Assembly (NCBI RefSeq): GCF_017433805.1
Contig: NZ_JAFRGN010000033.1
Coordinates: 1-64,000 of the forward strand
Length of the DNA stretch: 64,000 nt
Origin: Butyrivibrio sp.
GTDB taxonomy: Bacteria; Bacillota; Clostridia; Lachnospirales; Lachnospiraceae
Direction: 5' to 3'
Part shown: positions 1 through 17,294 of the stretch, one piece after another
Numbering within the stretch: the first letter of the stretch is position 1
How the letters are laid out: each line of letters begins with the position of its first letter
Notes under the pieces: generated by a model
The model's database searches: none
The model's input: only the letters and a program-made list of their open reading frames with translations
What the model was told of the DNA's origin: nothing
Program-made: the position numbers and the translations under genes

Positions 1-142
1 CCCGCTTGCTGAACCACGCATGCGTGTTAGTTTGTATTATCGATAAAGTGGTTAGAATGAAATGTGAGGAGCCGTATGCGTTAATAGCGCACGTACGGTT
101 CTGGAGAGGAGTATAATGAAAAATTGTTATACTTACTTAAGT
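1..142 (+). mobile_element. 3' end of a group II intron (domains V and VI)
   Basis: Positions 69-101 fold as a canonical group II intron domain V. GAGCCGTA (69-76) pairs with TACGGTTC (94-101) including the conserved G-U, and TGCG (77-80) pairs with CGCA (88-91). The two-base CG bulge is at 92-93 and the catalytic AGC triad at 70-72. Downstream, AGTATAA (110-116) pairs with TTATACT (127-133) as domain VI, and A135 can be drawn as a bulged branch-point adenosine. The exact 3' splice site is not certain, perhaps 136-143. The body of the intron and any reverse transcriptase lie upstream of the window. Confidence 0.8.
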
Positions 143-7085: not shown

Positions 7086-8306
7086 ATGAAAATTGCACAA
7101 AGTGAAGTAAATCTAGTGTCGAGCAATCATTACTATGAGGAGAATACGGTATCGATAAGTAGTGGGGTAGTGGCAAAGGGAACGTTTCAGGACAATCTGC
7201 AGAAGCAGGAGAATGCAGCAGAGAAGGGGCAGAATGTAGCTGCAGCGAAAGATCCAGGTAAAAAAACAGATAGCAAGAATAGTAATCAGCTAAAGCTATC
7301 CGACTACCTCGATCTTACTAGCAATGGCAATAGCAACAAGGCTGAGGATGCTCTTGGAAGCGAGACCTACAACAATCTTAAATCCCACAAGTCTGCGGCG
7401 CTCAGTACCTATGAGATGAGCCTTCAGGAGCAGATAGCTCAGATCAGAGCGAGCTTGTTGGAGAGTCTTTTAAGTTTCCTTCAGCTGATAGGTGGGGATA
7501 ATTCGAGAAGTGGTTATAAGGAGACAATTGAAGAAGCATCAAGCTTGGTGATAGAAAGTCATTTCGTCAAAGTGACGACGATTCAGATGAGCCATGTGGA
7601 GGAGGAGTCTACATCTTTTTCCGGAAAAGGAATGGCGATGACTGAGGATGGAAGGACAATTGATTTCAATGTGAATTTCAGTATGTCCAGGCGCCTTACG
7701 AGGTACGCCGGAATCAGCCTGGCAAGGGCAGTCAACATGATAGACCCGCTAGTTATCAATGTTGGGAGCGACGTAACGAGCATCAGCGACCAGAATTTCT
7801 TTTTTGACCTGGACTGCGATGGAGAGAAAGAGAAGATCAAGGGCCTCGGCCCTGGAACAGGGTTCCTCACCTATGATAGGAACGGAGACGGCGTGATCAA
7901 CGATGGCAGCGAGCTGTTCGGAACCAAGAGTGGCGACGGCTTCAGGGATCTGGCTCAGTACGATGATGACGGAAATGGCTGGATAGATGAAAACGATGCT
8001 ATTTATGGCAAGCTTCAGGTATGGCTTCGCGGAGAAGACGGCGTAGATACGTTGTTGTCGCTGCAGGAGGCGGATGTTGGAGCAATATTCTTGGGAAGTG
8101 CGGAAACGGATTACACGTTTATGGATAATCCTGGTAGTGGTGAAAGAGTGAATGGAAATGGCACAGCAAGTAGTGCTATTGACAATGCCGGGGTCAATAT
8201 GACAGCTGGAATGGCCGCCGCAGCCATGATGAGGGCCAGTGGACTATTTCTTAGGGAAAGCGGCGGCGTTGGAACTGTGCACCAGGTAGATCTGGCGAGG
8301 TTGTAA
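7086..8306 (+). CDS. EF-hand-like calcium-binding protein of the flagellar regulon
   Basis: A 406-residue protein with no signal peptide. The N-terminal 230 residues are Ser/Asn/Gln-rich and partly helical. Residues about 240-303 hold three Asp-rich loops: FFDLDCDGEKEK, then YDRNGDGVINDGSELFG, then YDDDGNGWIDEND. This DxDGDG / NGDGxIxDGxELFG pattern is a known calcium-binding module of bacterial secreted proteins, often linked to cell surfaces. ATG 7086 is preceded by AGGAGG at 7075-7080; an earlier in-frame start lies right after the terminator hairpin. The sigma-28-type promoter and lack of a signal peptide suggest that it is made with late flagellar proteins and perhaps exported by their machinery. 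That export is inference. Confidence 0.65.
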   Translation: MKIAQSEVNLVSSNHYYEENTVSISSGVVAKGTFQDNLQKQENAAEKGQNVAAAKDPGKKTDSKNSNQLKLSDYLDLTSNGNSNKAEDALGSETYNNLKSHKSAALSTYEMSLQEQIAQIRASLLESLLSFLQLIGGDNSRSGYKETIEEASSLVIESHFVKVTTIQMSHVEEESTSFSGKGMAMTEDGRTIDFNVNFSMSRRLTRYAGISLARAVNMIDPLVINVGSDVTSISDQNFFFDLDCDGEKEKIKGLGPGTGFLTYDRNGDGVINDGSELFGTKSGDGFRDLAQYDDDGNGWIDENDAIYGKLQVWLRGEDGVDTLLSLQEADVGAIFLGSAETDYTFMDNPGSGERVNGNGTASSAIDNAGVNMTAGMAAAAMMRASGLFLRESGGVGTVHQVDLARL

Positions 8307-8339: not shown

Positions 8340-8704
8340 TGCGGCTAAAGGTTTAGGGAGGCGTTTTGAGGTTCGTTAGCCGCATGTATGATGAAAAGTG
8401 ATATGCGGCTAATAGATTTGAGGTCGTGATTTCGGATCATTAGCCGCAAGAGCATAAAAAGGAAGTTTTCGGCTAAAGCTATTTGTTGTGATATTTGGCG
8501 GCTATTAGCCGAAAATGGTATTAAGAGTGATATGCGGCTAATGGATTTGTGGGCATGATTTCAGATCATTAGCCGCAAGAGCATAAAAAGGAAGTTTTCG
8601 GCTAAAGCTATTTGTTGTGATATTTGAATTCCATTAGCCGCAAAACAAGATAAGTGTGCTCTGCGGCTAAATGTCACAAGACATTTGGCCGCGGGACACG
8701 AAAA
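8340..8704. repeat. Array of six GCGGCTAA-type inverted repeats
   Basis: Stems (left/right arms): 8340-8348/8376-8384 TGCGGCTAA; 8404-8413/8439-8448 TGCGGCTAAT; 8466-8476/8505-8515 TTTTCGGCTAA; 8533-8542/8568-8577 TGCGGCTAAT; 8595-8605/8634-8645 TTTTCGGCTAA with a bulged C; and 8663-8675/8680-8692, a 13-bp stem with one G-U and a 4-base loop. Hairpins 2-3 are repeated as hairpins 4-5 at an offset of 129 bases, and 8436-8497 is identical to 8565-8626. Arms are conserved and complementary while most loops vary, so structure appears to be selected. Confidence 0.9.
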
Positions 8705-8962: not shown

Positions 8963-9250
8963 ATGCGTATAGAAGCATACAGTCAGGTTCAGCAAGTTTA
9001 TTCAAACAACAAAGTGGGTAAGGCACAGCCAGCTAAGAAGACAAATGATATCAGGGATACTGTATCATTCTCTTCAATTGGCAAAGATATTCAGGTTGCT
9101 AAACAGGCTGTAAGCGCAGCTCCAGATGTCAGGGAGGACGTTGTAGCTAAGTACAAAGCTGCTATTAAGAACGGAACTTATGATGTAAGTGGAGAGGCAT
9201 TTGCAGACAAGCTTCTTGCTAAATTCGAAGAATCTGAAGGATTAGCATAA
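8963..9250 (+). CDS. flgM: Anti-sigma-28 factor FlgM
   Basis: A 95-residue protein that holds sigma-28 inactive until the hook is finished, when it is secreted through the flagellar export gate. The disordered, Gln/Asn/Lys-rich N-terminus, the DTVSFSSIGKDIQVAKQA segment and the C-terminal helices with VAKYKAAIKNGTYDVSGEAFADKLL match the FlgM family, whose C-terminal half binds sigma-28. GGAGG precedes ATG 8963. It opens the flgM-flgN-flgK-flgK2-flgL operon, and two sigma-28-type promoters upstream imply feedback control. Confidence 0.92.
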   Translation: MRIEAYSQVQQVYSNNKVGKAQPAKKTNDIRDTVSFSSIGKDIQVAKQAVSAAPDVREDVVAKYKAAIKNGTYDVSGEAFADKLLAKFEESEGLA

Positions 9251-13510: not shown

Positions 13511-15622
13511 ATGCGTATCACCAACAAGATCATGCAGAATAATTCCCTTTACAATATTAATAACAACAAGGTTACCGAGGATCAGCTCAACACCATGATG
13601 TCTACAGGGAAAAAGCTTACAAGACCCTCGGATGATCCTGTTATTGCCATAAGAGCTCTAAGACTTAGAAGTAATGTAACACAGCTCTCTCAGTACTATG
13701 AGAAGAACGCCAAGGATGCAGAGAGCTGGCTCAATGTTACAGCGGATGCACTTTCTACCATCACAGCTGTCCTTACAGACTCTGTTAAGCAGGCAACCAA
13801 GGGCGCCAGCAAGGATCTGACCTTAGACGACCTTGAGACCATCATTACTCAGATGGATGCATTGGCAAAAGAGTATTATTCAACTGGTAATGTAGACTAC
13901 GCTGGAAGATATGTATTTACAGGATTTAGAACAGATACACCACTTACTTTTGATAAGACTACAACAGCAGCATATACAGGAATCAACGATGAGTTTAATG
14001 CTTCTATAGTAAGCGAATCCAAGCGTATTCTTGGTAAGTACAAGCTTGATTCCTCCACAGTTATGGACAAGTCAGCAGAAGATGCTGTATATGAGAACAC
14101 TATCGTCGAGAGTATAGTCGGAAGAATTCGCTTATCTTACGATAATCTCAACTACATTGCACCTAATAATGCCAATGGCATTAAGAACGAGGCGATGCTT
14201 AAATATAGAGAAGACCTGATGCAGCCAGCAACCAGCAGTGTTAGCAGCACAACTCAGGTCATTAATGTAACCTTTAAGACCTATGATGGAATTACCAGAT
14301 CGGCTACTATCCCGATTGATAATAATGGCAATTACAAGATTACCAATGAAGAGGATGGTGCATCTTACACAGCAGTTGAGCAGGCAAACGGCTCATATCT
14401 TGTAACTGCAAGAGACTTATCAGGAAATATCATCGGTACTATTCCTGTCAGCAAAGATGGCGTAATGGGCGAGCTTGATCCTACAATGAGCATCCAGTCA
14501 GGAATTGCAAGTTTAGAGACCAAGCAGGTTTCAACACTTACCTACACCGACGATGACAAGAATGCCATAAGCGTGAGACTTCCTCTTTTACCAGCAATCG
14601 GACAGACTTACGAGATCGAACTTGATAAGGATGGTTATGTTGCCACTGTTAACAGTGATGGAACCTACACAGTAAAGAACCTGAATGCAGTTAATAATTC
14701 TGATGGTTCTTACACCAATACTGTTATTAACGTTACAGCCAATGGCAGCGTAAACTCTTCCTATAAAGAGACAACCATCGTGATTTCCAGTGACGATGAC
14801 AACATCATTTACTCTACCAGCGAGGAATCCGAGATTGATGCAGCATATGAGAAGCTCTCTAATGGAGAGGCAATGGCAGTTCTGAATGCGGCAACTGGTG
14901 AGATACTTTTGTGTGATTCGCTAAAAGACAAGCTTTCAACACTTCCAGATATTATCAATGCCAAGTCTATTGACGTTGTATATGACAAAAAAGAGTGGGT
15001 TAACGGCGATATTCGTCCTGAGAATCTTTTCAACTGTACATATACTGATGAAAATGGCAAGCAGATACTCTACAACAAGGGAAATGCCGGCCATGACATC
15101 GCTTATGACGTAGGATTTGCACAGTCTGTAATAGTTAACACAACTGCCAGCGAAGTTTTCACAACCGGTGTTAAAAGAGATGTTCAGGATCTTTCAAAGA
15201 TGCTGAGCGAGCTTAAGCAGATATCAGGAACCCTGACAACGCTTGATGATAAGTTGAAAGCTGCTACTGACGACAAGGTTAAGGAAGTCATCCAGGCGGA
15301 AATAGATTCAGCACAGAAGGCATACAATTACCTTCGTGATGAGATGCAGGTGGAATTCGAGCACAAGATCACCTCCAATCAGAAGTCACTTGATGTTGCA
15401 AACATTGCTGTTACTAATAACGGAACCAGATCCAAGAGACTTGATCTTGTTAACCAGAGACTCATGAATCAGACCACAACCTTCAAGACTCTCCAGTCTG
15501 AGAATGAGGACATAGACCTTGCTGAGACAGCAACCCAGCTCACAACAGCACAGGTAACCTACGAGGCCAGCCTTATGGCAACAGGTAAGATCAGTCAGAG
15601 TTCGCTAATAAATTTCATATGA
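13511..15622 (+). CDS. flgL: Flagellar hook-associated protein 3, FlgL (oversized)
   Basis: A 703-residue protein, more than twice the roughly 300 residues usual for FlgL. The N-terminal part has the family signature (MRITNKIMQNNSLYNIN, then STGKKLTRPSDDP near residue 33) and the C-terminus has the flagellin-like NQKSLDVANIAVTNNGTR and ETATQLTTAQVTYEASL. Between about residues 150 and 560 is a large beta-rich insert with repeated Thr/Asn/Asp-rich segments, which would form the exposed domain of the junction ring. AAGGAGG precedes ATG 13511. It ends the flgM operon. Confidence 0.9.
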   Translation: MRITNKIMQNNSLYNINNNKVTEDQLNTMMSTGKKLTRPSDDPVIAIRALRLRSNVTQLSQYYEKNAKDAESWLNVTADALSTITAVLTDSVKQATKGASKDLTLDDLETIITQMDALAKEYYSTGNVDYAGRYVFTGFRTDTPLTFDKTTTAAYTGINDEFNASIVSESKRILGKYKLDSSTVMDKSAEDAVYENTIVESIVGRIRLSYDNLNYIAPNNANGIKNEAMLKYREDLMQPATSSVSSTTQVINVTFKTYDGITRSATIPIDNNGNYKITNEEDGASYTAVEQANGSYLVTARDLSGNIIGTIPVSKDGVMGELDPTMSIQSGIASLETKQVSTLTYTDDDKNAISVRLPLLPAIGQTYEIELDKDGYVATVNSDGTYTVKNLNAVNNSDGSYTNTVINVTANGSVNSSYKETTIVISSDDDNIIYSTSEESEIDAAYEKLSNGEAMAVLNAATGEILLCDSLKDKLSTLPDIINAKSIDVVYDKKEWVNGDIRPENLFNCTYTDENGKQILYNKGNAGHDIAYDVGFAQSVIVNTTASEVFTTGVKRDVQDLSKMLSELKQISGTLTTLDDKLKAATDDKVKEVIQAEIDSAQKAYNYLRDEMQVEFEHKITSNQKSLDVANIAVTNNGTRSKRLDLVNQRLMNQTTTFKTLQSENEDIDLAETATQLTTAQVTYEASLMATGKISQSSLINFI

Positions 15623-15894
15623 TATAGATTTGAAAAGTCATGCATATGATGTGCTTGCACATTATTATGCATGACCTTGCAAATCGAACAATGATGAGGA
15701 AAAAAGCAGTATGAATAAAATGAATACTGCGATTTCCGAATTATTGTAGGATTGCGAGAACGAAGTGAAGCAATCCGTATATCATATATATACATATACG
15801 TATGCAAGGTTATAAAGTTTTAATAGATATATGACGAAATAACGTATATAATTAATTTGTAATGGGTATCATTATCGTTGATGGAGGTTAAGCA
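15623..15894. other. Spacer between flgL and fliW with three hairpins
   Basis: It holds three consecutive inverted repeats. The first is a 59-base cruciform at 15627-15685 with arms GATTTG/CAAATC and GTCATGCATA/TATGCATGAC. The second has arms GCAGTAT and ATACTGC near 15706-15730. The third has arms GGATTGC and GCAATCC near 15749-15776. None ends in a strong T run. A sigma-28-like promoter candidate follows. Confidence 0.75.
15813..15852 (+). promoter_or_regulatory. Candidate promoter(s) for fliW-csrA
   Basis: TAAAGTTT (15813-15820) followed 12 bases later by GACGAAAT (15833-15840) resembles the sigma-28-type sites nearby, with two -10 changes. An overlapping TATAAT at 15847-15852 could serve the housekeeping sigma factor. 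Neither is strong. Confidence 0.4.
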
Positions 15895-16871: not shown

Positions 16872-17294
16872 ATGTTAACACAGCAGGATATACTAGCAAT
16901 TAAAAATGCTCTTAAAGAAGATTTTGATAGAATCGATAGAAGATTCGATGGAATCGATGAAAGATTCGAAGGAGTCGATAGGAGATTTGATGAAATCGAT
17001 GAAAGATTCGAAGGAGTCGATAGAAGATTCGATGAATCCGACAATAGATTCGAAGGAATCGAAAGTCGCTTAGACAAGCTTGAAAGGGATGTCAAAGAGA
17101 TTAAGATTGATCTTCTCGAGAACAACGTGATTCCTAGACTCAATACTATCGAGCAGTGTTATTTAGACACTTCTAAGAGGTATATGGAGAGTGCTGACAA
17201 ATATGACAATGCTATAACTGATATTGAGGTTATGAAACTTGCAATTCAGAAGAATTCAGCAGATATCCGTGAACTTCAGTTAAAACAGGCATAA
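16872..17294 (+). CDS. Coiled-coil protein built from heptad repeats
   Basis: A 140-residue cytosolic protein of unknown function. After a helical start (MLTQQDILAIKNALKEDF), residues about 18-60 are consecutive seven-residue units of the form F(D/E)xIDxR: FDGIDER, FEGVDRR, FDEIDER, FEGVDRR, FDESDNR. A second helical part ends in IRELQLKQA. Such repeats form a long parallel coiled coil. The DNA repeats too. ATGGAGG lies 9 bases before ATG 16872. It has its own terminator and lies between csrA and a glycosyltransferase, but no sequence feature ties it to the flagellum. Confidence 0.6.
   Translation: MLTQQDILAIKNALKEDFDRIDRRFDGIDERFEGVDRRFDEIDERFEGVDRRFDESDNRFEGIESRLDKLERDVKEIKIDLLENNVIPRLNTIEQCYLDTSKRYMESADKYDNAITDIEVMKLAIQKNSADIRELQLKQA
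16921..17060 (+). repeat. 21-bp minisatellite inside the coiled-coil gene
   Basis: About six head-to-tail units resembling AGATTCGATGGAATCGATGA, with a 42-base higher-order period (AGATTCGAAGGAGTCGATAG recurs), encode the heptads. Being 21 bases long, gain or loss of units would stay in frame. Confidence 0.85.

Follow-up and report, generated by a model that had tools for sequence, protein, structure and literature searches.

Arrays of inverted 9-bp half-sites spaced by helical turns and their linkage to a nuclease-like gene family in Butyrivibrio and related genera

The window, a stretch of 64,000 nucleotides from a Butyrivibrio sp. genome, carries upstream of flgM an array of short inverted half-sites. 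With a probability of roughly 0.7, the array is a set of sites at which a dedicated protein, from an unnamed ~270-amino-acid family, binds double-stranded DNA, gene and repeats forming a REP-like system. The strongest single result is a 10.5-bp rhythm in the distance between units, which suggests that double-stranded DNA is read on a single face. Arrays of the same geometry accompany many genes of this protein family, and further copies are scattered in intergenic DNA.

Organization of the array in the window

The inverted GCGGCTAA/TTAGCCGC arms span positions 8340-8670 and the first half-site begins 33 bases past the stop codon of the upstream ORF (Table 1). Exact 7-mer half-sites (CGGCTAA or TTAGCCG) occur 11 times within 8340-8704, in alternating orientation, and once in the remainder of the window. 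Shuffling the mononucleotides of the whole 64 kb 200 times yields a mean of 5.75 half-sites and a maximum of 12, so that the clustering of the half-sites, not their total, is beyond chance. Start-to-start distances in the window are 29 or 30 when measured from TTAGCCG to the following CGGCTAA, and 34 or 35 between CGGCTAA and the following TTAGCCG. The repeated unit is TTAGCCG(C/A)A-N19-T(G/T)CGGCTAA, 37 bp long, and the window has five units, 64/65 bp apart.

The first-pass annotation had described this segment as six stems with a common core and a 62-base exact block repeated at an offset of 129. The inverted arms stand, but the stems are not equivalent: the fifth pair is uncompensated (TTTTCGG versus CCGCAAA), and the sixth stem is a separate hairpin with TTTGGCCGC rather than a half-site as its right arm. 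A terminator scan found no T-run terminator at this hairpin. The exact repeat is real and has 63 bases (8435-8497 = 8564-8626). The gene called EF-hand-like does precede the array; its label finds no backing in Pfam, which has no match in this ORF. At gathering score Rfam gives two matches in the window, neither of them on the array: Clostridiales-1 RNA (RF01699) at 15618-15786 (+), with 109.6 bits, and the group II intron model RF00029 at 67-142 (+), barely over the cut-off at the left window end. A tandem array of period 21/42 (AGAAGATTCGATGGAATCGAT) is present at 16916-17062.

Table 1. Coordinates of the array elements, their neighbours and the transposase relative of the same genome (window positions unless a locus is named)
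Feature	Position	Strand	Remarks
Upstream ORF	7086..8306	+	Likely start 7086, open from 6999
Lone half-site TGCGGCTAA	8340..8348	-	Right-arm orientation, without partner at unit distance
Unit 1	8376..8412		TTAGCCGCA-N19-TGCGGCTAA
129-bp tandem duplication	8376..8633		Two periods, 8376-8504 versus 8505-8633, 86% identical
Unit 2	8440..8476		TTAGCCGCA-N19-TTCGGCTAA
Unit 3	8505..8541		TTAGCCGAA-N19-TGCGGCTAA
Unit 4	8569..8605		TTAGCCGCA-N19-TTCGGCTAA, identical to unit 2, within the 63-base exact repeat
Unit 5	8634..8670		TTAGCCGCA-N19-TGCGGCTAA
Separate tight hairpin	8655..8700	+	4-nt loop, MFE -30.9 kcal/mol, z -8.9, overlaps the last half-site
flgM, downstream neighbour	8963..9250	+	Pfam FlgM 5.5e-20
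RAYT relative, 259 aa	L182:3787-4563 (G000 C34)		NCBIfam

Recurrence of the unit and its helical spacing

The window belongs to contig C29 of genome G000 (3.45 Mb, 74 contigs). The exact pattern GCGGCTAA-N10..40-TTAGCCGC is found at 20 places of this genome and TTAGCCG-N22..24-CGGCTAA at 33, with 0 matches for the reversed-pattern control in each case. The arrays lie on contigs C2, C14, C29, C54, C57 (two) and C64 (several), some of them with an outer step of 24. On C64 (locus L024) one array and the ORF beyond it are present in two copies, ~5 kb apart. The insides of the units are unrelated between arrays, though fixed in length. All 42 inner gaps start with CA or AA and 41 of the 42 finish with TG or TT, which extends the conserved half-site to 9 bp, TTAGCCG(C/A)A. 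It is from TTAGCCG to the next CGGCTAA that the gap is constant (23 bases in 35 of 42 cases, 22 in five, 24 in two). The first-pass annotation had paired the half-sites in the opposite register, where the gap is 27 or 28 in 36 of 38 cases and 17 in two, and about 38 or 48-49 in genomes G001 and G031.

In a genome contig collection the exact pattern has four loci, of which L030 (Butyrivibrio, MAG RGIG3377) alone carries an array, the others being single matches. This array reappears in the same-genus genome G099, and the C54 array of G000 has three units fewer than RGIG3377. The arrays of G001 and G031 are of the TTAGCC(T/G)AA type, with an inner step of 29-30 and an outer step of mostly 45 or 55/56. 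In a model search the best match outside G000, G087, G099, G031 and G001 has E=0.0012 among the matches listed.

A role specific to flgM is not supported, since the half-site of the window recurs in arrays at numerous other places. A strict scan, which requires 9-bp arms with no more than one mispair, a gap of 18/19 and at least three related units, detects arrays in the slot upstream of flgM at 5 of 30 flgM loci, the window's own included. G087 also has a TTAGCCG array there, with insides that are not alignable to those of the window. At the same place G014 has units TTA(C/T)ACGAA-N19-TTCGTGTAA and TTATATGCA-N19-TGCATATAA, the outer gaps being 28, 39 and 18, and the units of G032 are of the CTACTGTAT type; in both genomes the unit geometry is that of the window while the half-sites are quite different. 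In G014 (L167, contig C76) the TTA(C/T)ACGAA and TTATATGCA units alternate, with arrays on both sides of the gene upstream of flgM and matching arms. No array is found at the flgM-upstream place of G063, whose FlgM is 96% identical; inspection by eye (L034, L166) reveals there a GC-rich hairpin after the stop codon of the upstream gene instead.

The distances between units were pooled from 43 arrays, leaving out L305, L317 and L248, each a copy or near copy of another locus, together with steps of at least 110 bp, and retaining related arrays of sister species. The resulting 140 unit-to-unit steps gather near 53 (32 steps), 64 (36), 74.5 (43), 85 (20) and 95 bp (7), with two others. Their resultant at 10.5 bp is R=0.89 (n=140), or 0.82 with one value per array; the rhythm is matched in none of 5000 uniform draws, and the best period in the range of 7 to 16 is 10.6. 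The scan fixes the distance within the unit and otherwise only forbids overlap between units, so the search itself does not impose the rhythm.

The linked gene family, its half-sites and the scattered arrays

Neighbours of the TTAGCC-type arrays include the gene of an unnamed protein of ~270 amino acids in G087 (424 kb), on contig C57 of G000 and in G001. The C57 gene is broken into two pieces, with stops and its middle missing, while its same-slot counterpart in G087 is intact. In G001 the family gene is flanked by arrays on both sides and has different other neighbours. Searching with the G087 protein reveals relatives in 69 of 79 genomes of the genus, at up to 11 places per genome, and members occur in 94 of 392 sampled genomes of the order, spanning 43 of 173 genera. 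In G099, which has TTAGCC arrays, the incomplete assembly yielded no close member of the family.

Linkage was assessed at the 30 best-scoring genus places of the search with the G087 protein, one of which (L232) is circular, the family having been discovered there. The strict scan detects arrays at 16 of these 30 loci and at none of 30 transposase loci of the same genus and of equal total length. It also detects them at 5 of 16 loci from other genera (L290, L293, L295, L296 and L297), these being the 16 of 30 fetched loci of the order sample whose other 14 are from the window's genus, and at 3 of 20 further loci (L305, L312 and L317). A lax scan (7-mers, at most one mismatch each side, at least three units, the array with most units taken at each locus) gives arrays at 25 of the 30 genus loci, at 9 of the 20 further copies and, in other genera, at 12 of the 16 loci, counting the weak arrays L237, L292 and L320, against 1 of 30 in the control; the family loci where it finds no array number 5 of 30, 11 of 20 and 4 of 16, respectively. 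When the distance is set to control values the lax scan still matches 7 of 30 genus loci and 3 of 16 from other genera at 45-52 bp, and 6 of 16 from other genera at 14-21 bp, which is tentatively attributed to longer arms and outer pairings. Arrays accompany 2 of 5 further copies in G000 and 2 of 7 copies in G016. The contig of the window carries another family member outside the window (L301, C29:94809-95597), and no array was found beside it. The array is 5' of the gene at 36 of 46 array-bearing loci (33 of 43 unique ones), 25-460 bp from the matched region, gene positions being taken as the ends of the protein matches rather than start codons.

The 23 aligned members have in common R-S-K-S-E, D-F and E-H-x-G motifs in their carboxyl-terminal half. 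The acidic motif residues E170, D201 and E216 are invariant, and the usual (D/E)XK lysine is absent from its place. Pfam and NCBIfam offer no convincing match for the family. The PADLOC model PDC-S68 matches all 23 members (best 5.7e-31) and HEAT_CxxC_PDDEXK 18 of them, while the PHROG Holliday-junction resolvase matches 12; through these PADLOC and PHROG models the protein is connected by sequence to the PD-(D/E)XK superfamily. The carboxyl-terminal half is read as a putative PD-(D/E)XK-type domain with the usual lysine displaced or lost. The amino-terminal half has no convincing solved relative. It is more variable (mean identity 0.29 versus 0.46) and tracks the half-site with a slight edge (0.112 versus 0.072, given without a significance figure); it would be the natural candidate for reading the half-site.

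The half-site differs between family copies of one genome: in G000 it is TTAGCCG at C57 and TTTACCG at C67, in G001 TTAGCC at C11 and TTACCTG at C30. Protein pairs at least 60% identical have a mean half-site score of 6.3 (16 pairs, 11 scoring at least 5 and five below), which falls to 1.5 for pairs 45-60% identical (73 pairs) and to about 0 for more distant ones. L313 and L261 encode proteins 72% identical and have a half-site score of 1. Over all pairs protein and half-site correlate slightly, though more than after shuffling (Mantel r=0.085, p=0.016). Part of the agreement among close proteins comes from common descent of gene and array.

Relatives of the protein are also encoded by viral contigs, at nine loci, the three with ORFs listed coding for proteins of ~1200-1300 amino acids. 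A plasmid collection gives two partial matches and a phage collection two faecal contigs, with 83-91% of the protein covered. A viral origin of the arrays was set aside, as viral contigs give no match to the exact array pattern and none of the nine relative loci has an array.

Dispersal is also seen with units of the ATGACTT type. Among the 79 genomes they are numerous only in G033 (27), G016 (10), G071 (8), G035 (5) and G102 (5); single matches occur in 14 other genomes, the reversed control giving one match in each of six genomes. A family gene adjoins an ATGAC(T/C)T array in G033, G071 and G035 and a TATGACT array in G102. G016 has ten ATGACTT units, yet its best-matching family copy (L254) has no array alongside. 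In G033 a unit on C8, beside the family gene, is identical to one on C12, and the homology of the two loci is limited to the array. Between G033 and G016 the arrays at one place, with flanks ~98% identical, differ by one 74-bp period, showing gain or loss of a whole unit. A MITE-like segment of ~420 bp carries an ATGACTT array at L346 4772-5190, L347 275-695 (G071) and L348 (G035); its ends look inverted by eye (GGGGCTGTCG.../...CGACAGCCCC) and it is a possible vehicle for the array. In a sample of 36 scattered arrays, chosen by hand and with ORFs called by length only, 23 lie between co-directional genes, eight between convergent and four between divergent ones, one being untyped. Many scattered arrays closely follow a stop codon.

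Meaning of the arrays and comparison with known systems

The family protein would combine a variable amino-terminal half with a PD-(D/E)XK nuclease-like carboxyl-terminal half. One symmetrical dimer probably holds the 37-bp unit (9 bp, 19 bp, inverted 9 bp), and neighbouring dimers would sit on one helix face because the units are spaced by whole helical turns. Each gene copy would own a private half-site, with an array usually just upstream, and the 5' position of linked arrays suggests that the protein probably controls its own gene. More arrays with the same half-site lie dispersed at other intergenic places, the window array among them. Its presumed cognate gene is the broken copy beside another TTAGCCGCA array on C57; as this gene is broken in G000, the window array may now lack an attendant protein or depend on a relative. 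Genomes such as G033 have both intact family genes and many exact cognate units, which makes constant cutting unlikely. Binding, or conditional cutting or nicking of the units, remain as options compatible with the sequences. Scattered copies, varying unit numbers and half-sites peculiar to each gene copy suggest a REP-like element that mainly serves itself; the main alternative is that the arrays have a structural or regulatory function in the cell. It is possible, and proposed here only tentatively, that the system is a self-propagating chromosomal element of a new class. Its DNA-reading halves would occupy the inverted 9-bp sites while the nuclease domains meet over the spacer, self-control would operate via the upstream array, and binding or occasional breaking would drive gain, loss and copying of units, with a private sequence for each gene copy.

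The arrays might instead be host sites, operators or chromosome-organising sites of another, unlinked protein, with the nuclease-like gene a mere frequent neighbour or passenger. This appears unlikely, because the half-site varies between family genes even within G000 and within G001, close proteins mostly have common half-sites, and arrays are far commoner near family genes than near control genes; it would account for half-sites that stay intact in G000 despite the broken neighbouring family gene, for arrays that hold their place across species while their insides change (window versus L091, L095 versus L089) and for the many family copies without array. The spread of REP/BIME repeats by a REP-associated tyrosine transposase (RAYT) is hardly credible. 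G000 does encode a match to the NCBIfam model REP_Tyr_transpos (80.8 bits for a cut-off of 80), with relatives in G001 and G031, but this gene does not track the arrays: array-bearing G087 and G099 have no match, the matches in 27 of 79 genus genomes are mostly in genomes without TTAGCC arrays, no array turned up within 20 fetched regions surrounding PF01797 genes, and the lax scan finds one at 30 loci near RAYT relatives. RAYT was set aside as the acting protein after scans of the Pfam family, of proteins and of flanks. Plain tandem duplication or hitch-hiking on a MITE, leaving the half-sites functionless, can invoke the obvious duplications of the window (129 bp) and of the C57 array, as well as the ~420-bp segment shared by G071 and G035. 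It is nonetheless very improbable, as half-sites and spacing are constant across units with unrelated insides, and helical quantisation and gene linkage hold across unrelated half-sites.

The first-pass annotation had left open an RNA element, citing compensatory changes in the arms. Transcribed hairpins that end, protect or process mRNA, or that form a small RNA, would suit the strong folding of the array (z -6.7), a value that does not discriminate since any inverted-repeat array folds, and the position of many scattered arrays close behind a stop codon. The swap of TTTTCGGCTAA and TTAGCCGAAAA that had been noticed is indeed present in the third pair. A tally of half-sites with a single core change gives 9 of 90, and the neighbouring half-sites are unchanged in all nine, one changed core (TTAGTCG) being still able to give a G-U pair in RNA. 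In neither register does extended complementarity within the unit exceed that obtained with shuffled partners (z -1.04 to 0.09). At base 8 the inner pairs are complementary in 24 of 40 cases, without association (Fisher p=0.49), and the outer pairs, in the register of the annotation, in 28 of 35 (p=0.012, uncorrected for the relatedness of units). This weak and unexplained association is the single result in favour of the stems; together with the null inner tests it leaves compensation hinted at and unproven. The uncompensated cores, a unit spacing that tracks the helical repeat of DNA, the lack of an Rfam family on the array and the mostly upstream position of gene-linked arrays render an RNA role improbable. 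The wider claim of a selected structure is supported, and of the two forms offered for it the protein-binding palindrome fits better than the RNA element.

If binding by a dedicated family protein is the right reading, a family present in 69 of 79 genomes of the genus and in 43 of 173 sampled genera of the order owns private, helix-phased arrays next to many of its genes. Dozens of natural pairs of protein and half-site would then be available for studying DNA sequence choice, and intergenic repeats of one class, found in gut and rumen bacteria, would have a candidate explanation. The system is judged novel relative to Pfam, NCBIfam, Rfam, PADLOC, PHROGs and the open-access literature, where word-match searches, judged by titles and the starts of abstracts, showed no account of it.

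Among known systems, CRISPR arrays differ by their long conserved direct repeat, as here only the 9-bp arms are conserved and the 19-bp insides vary; Pfam names no cas genes among the window neighbours and five selected proteins elsewhere. Operator arrays of bacterial regulators can have inverted half-sites, helix-phased spacing and a position before the protein's own gene. They are set apart from the present arrays by the nuclease-like domain, the long arbitrary spacer, the scattered copies and the half-site that changes with each gene copy. The carboxyl-terminal nuclease-like domain is shared with the PDC-S68 candidate phage-defence proteins of PADLOC, which are however ~1200 amino acids long with helicase-like parts and have no array at the nine viral loci; a defence role is not inferred from this resemblance. 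The STAR elements of staphylococci are direct repeats of a 14-bp motif with 40-44 bp spacers (PMC3532100). They resemble the arrays in their short conserved motifs, fixed-length spacers, presence at several intergenic places and varying unit number, and in both cases function and way of spreading are unestablished; alternating half-sites and a linked gene distinguish the arrays, as the passages on STAR name no linked gene (PMC3532100).

The closest likeness is to REP/RAYT systems. In both, species-specific palindromic repeats of alternating orientation and regular spacing are scattered in intergenic DNA, one gene is cognate to the repeats and co-varies with them, and repeat number follows the presence of the gene. 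The differences concern the protein, PD-(D/E)XK-like here and a tyrosine (HUH) transposase there, and the unit, here made of two 9-bp sites around an arbitrary 19-bp spacer and spaced in whole helical turns. REP palindromes carry a short conserved tag at one end, for example GTAG, and no such tag stands beside the units in the arrays examined. A cognate RAYT gene flanked by repeats was not found; the linked array is here mostly 5' of its gene, while RAYT genes have one repeat on each side. If the proposed reading is correct, these arrays and their genes would form a second kind of gene-plus-repeat system beside REP/RAYT.
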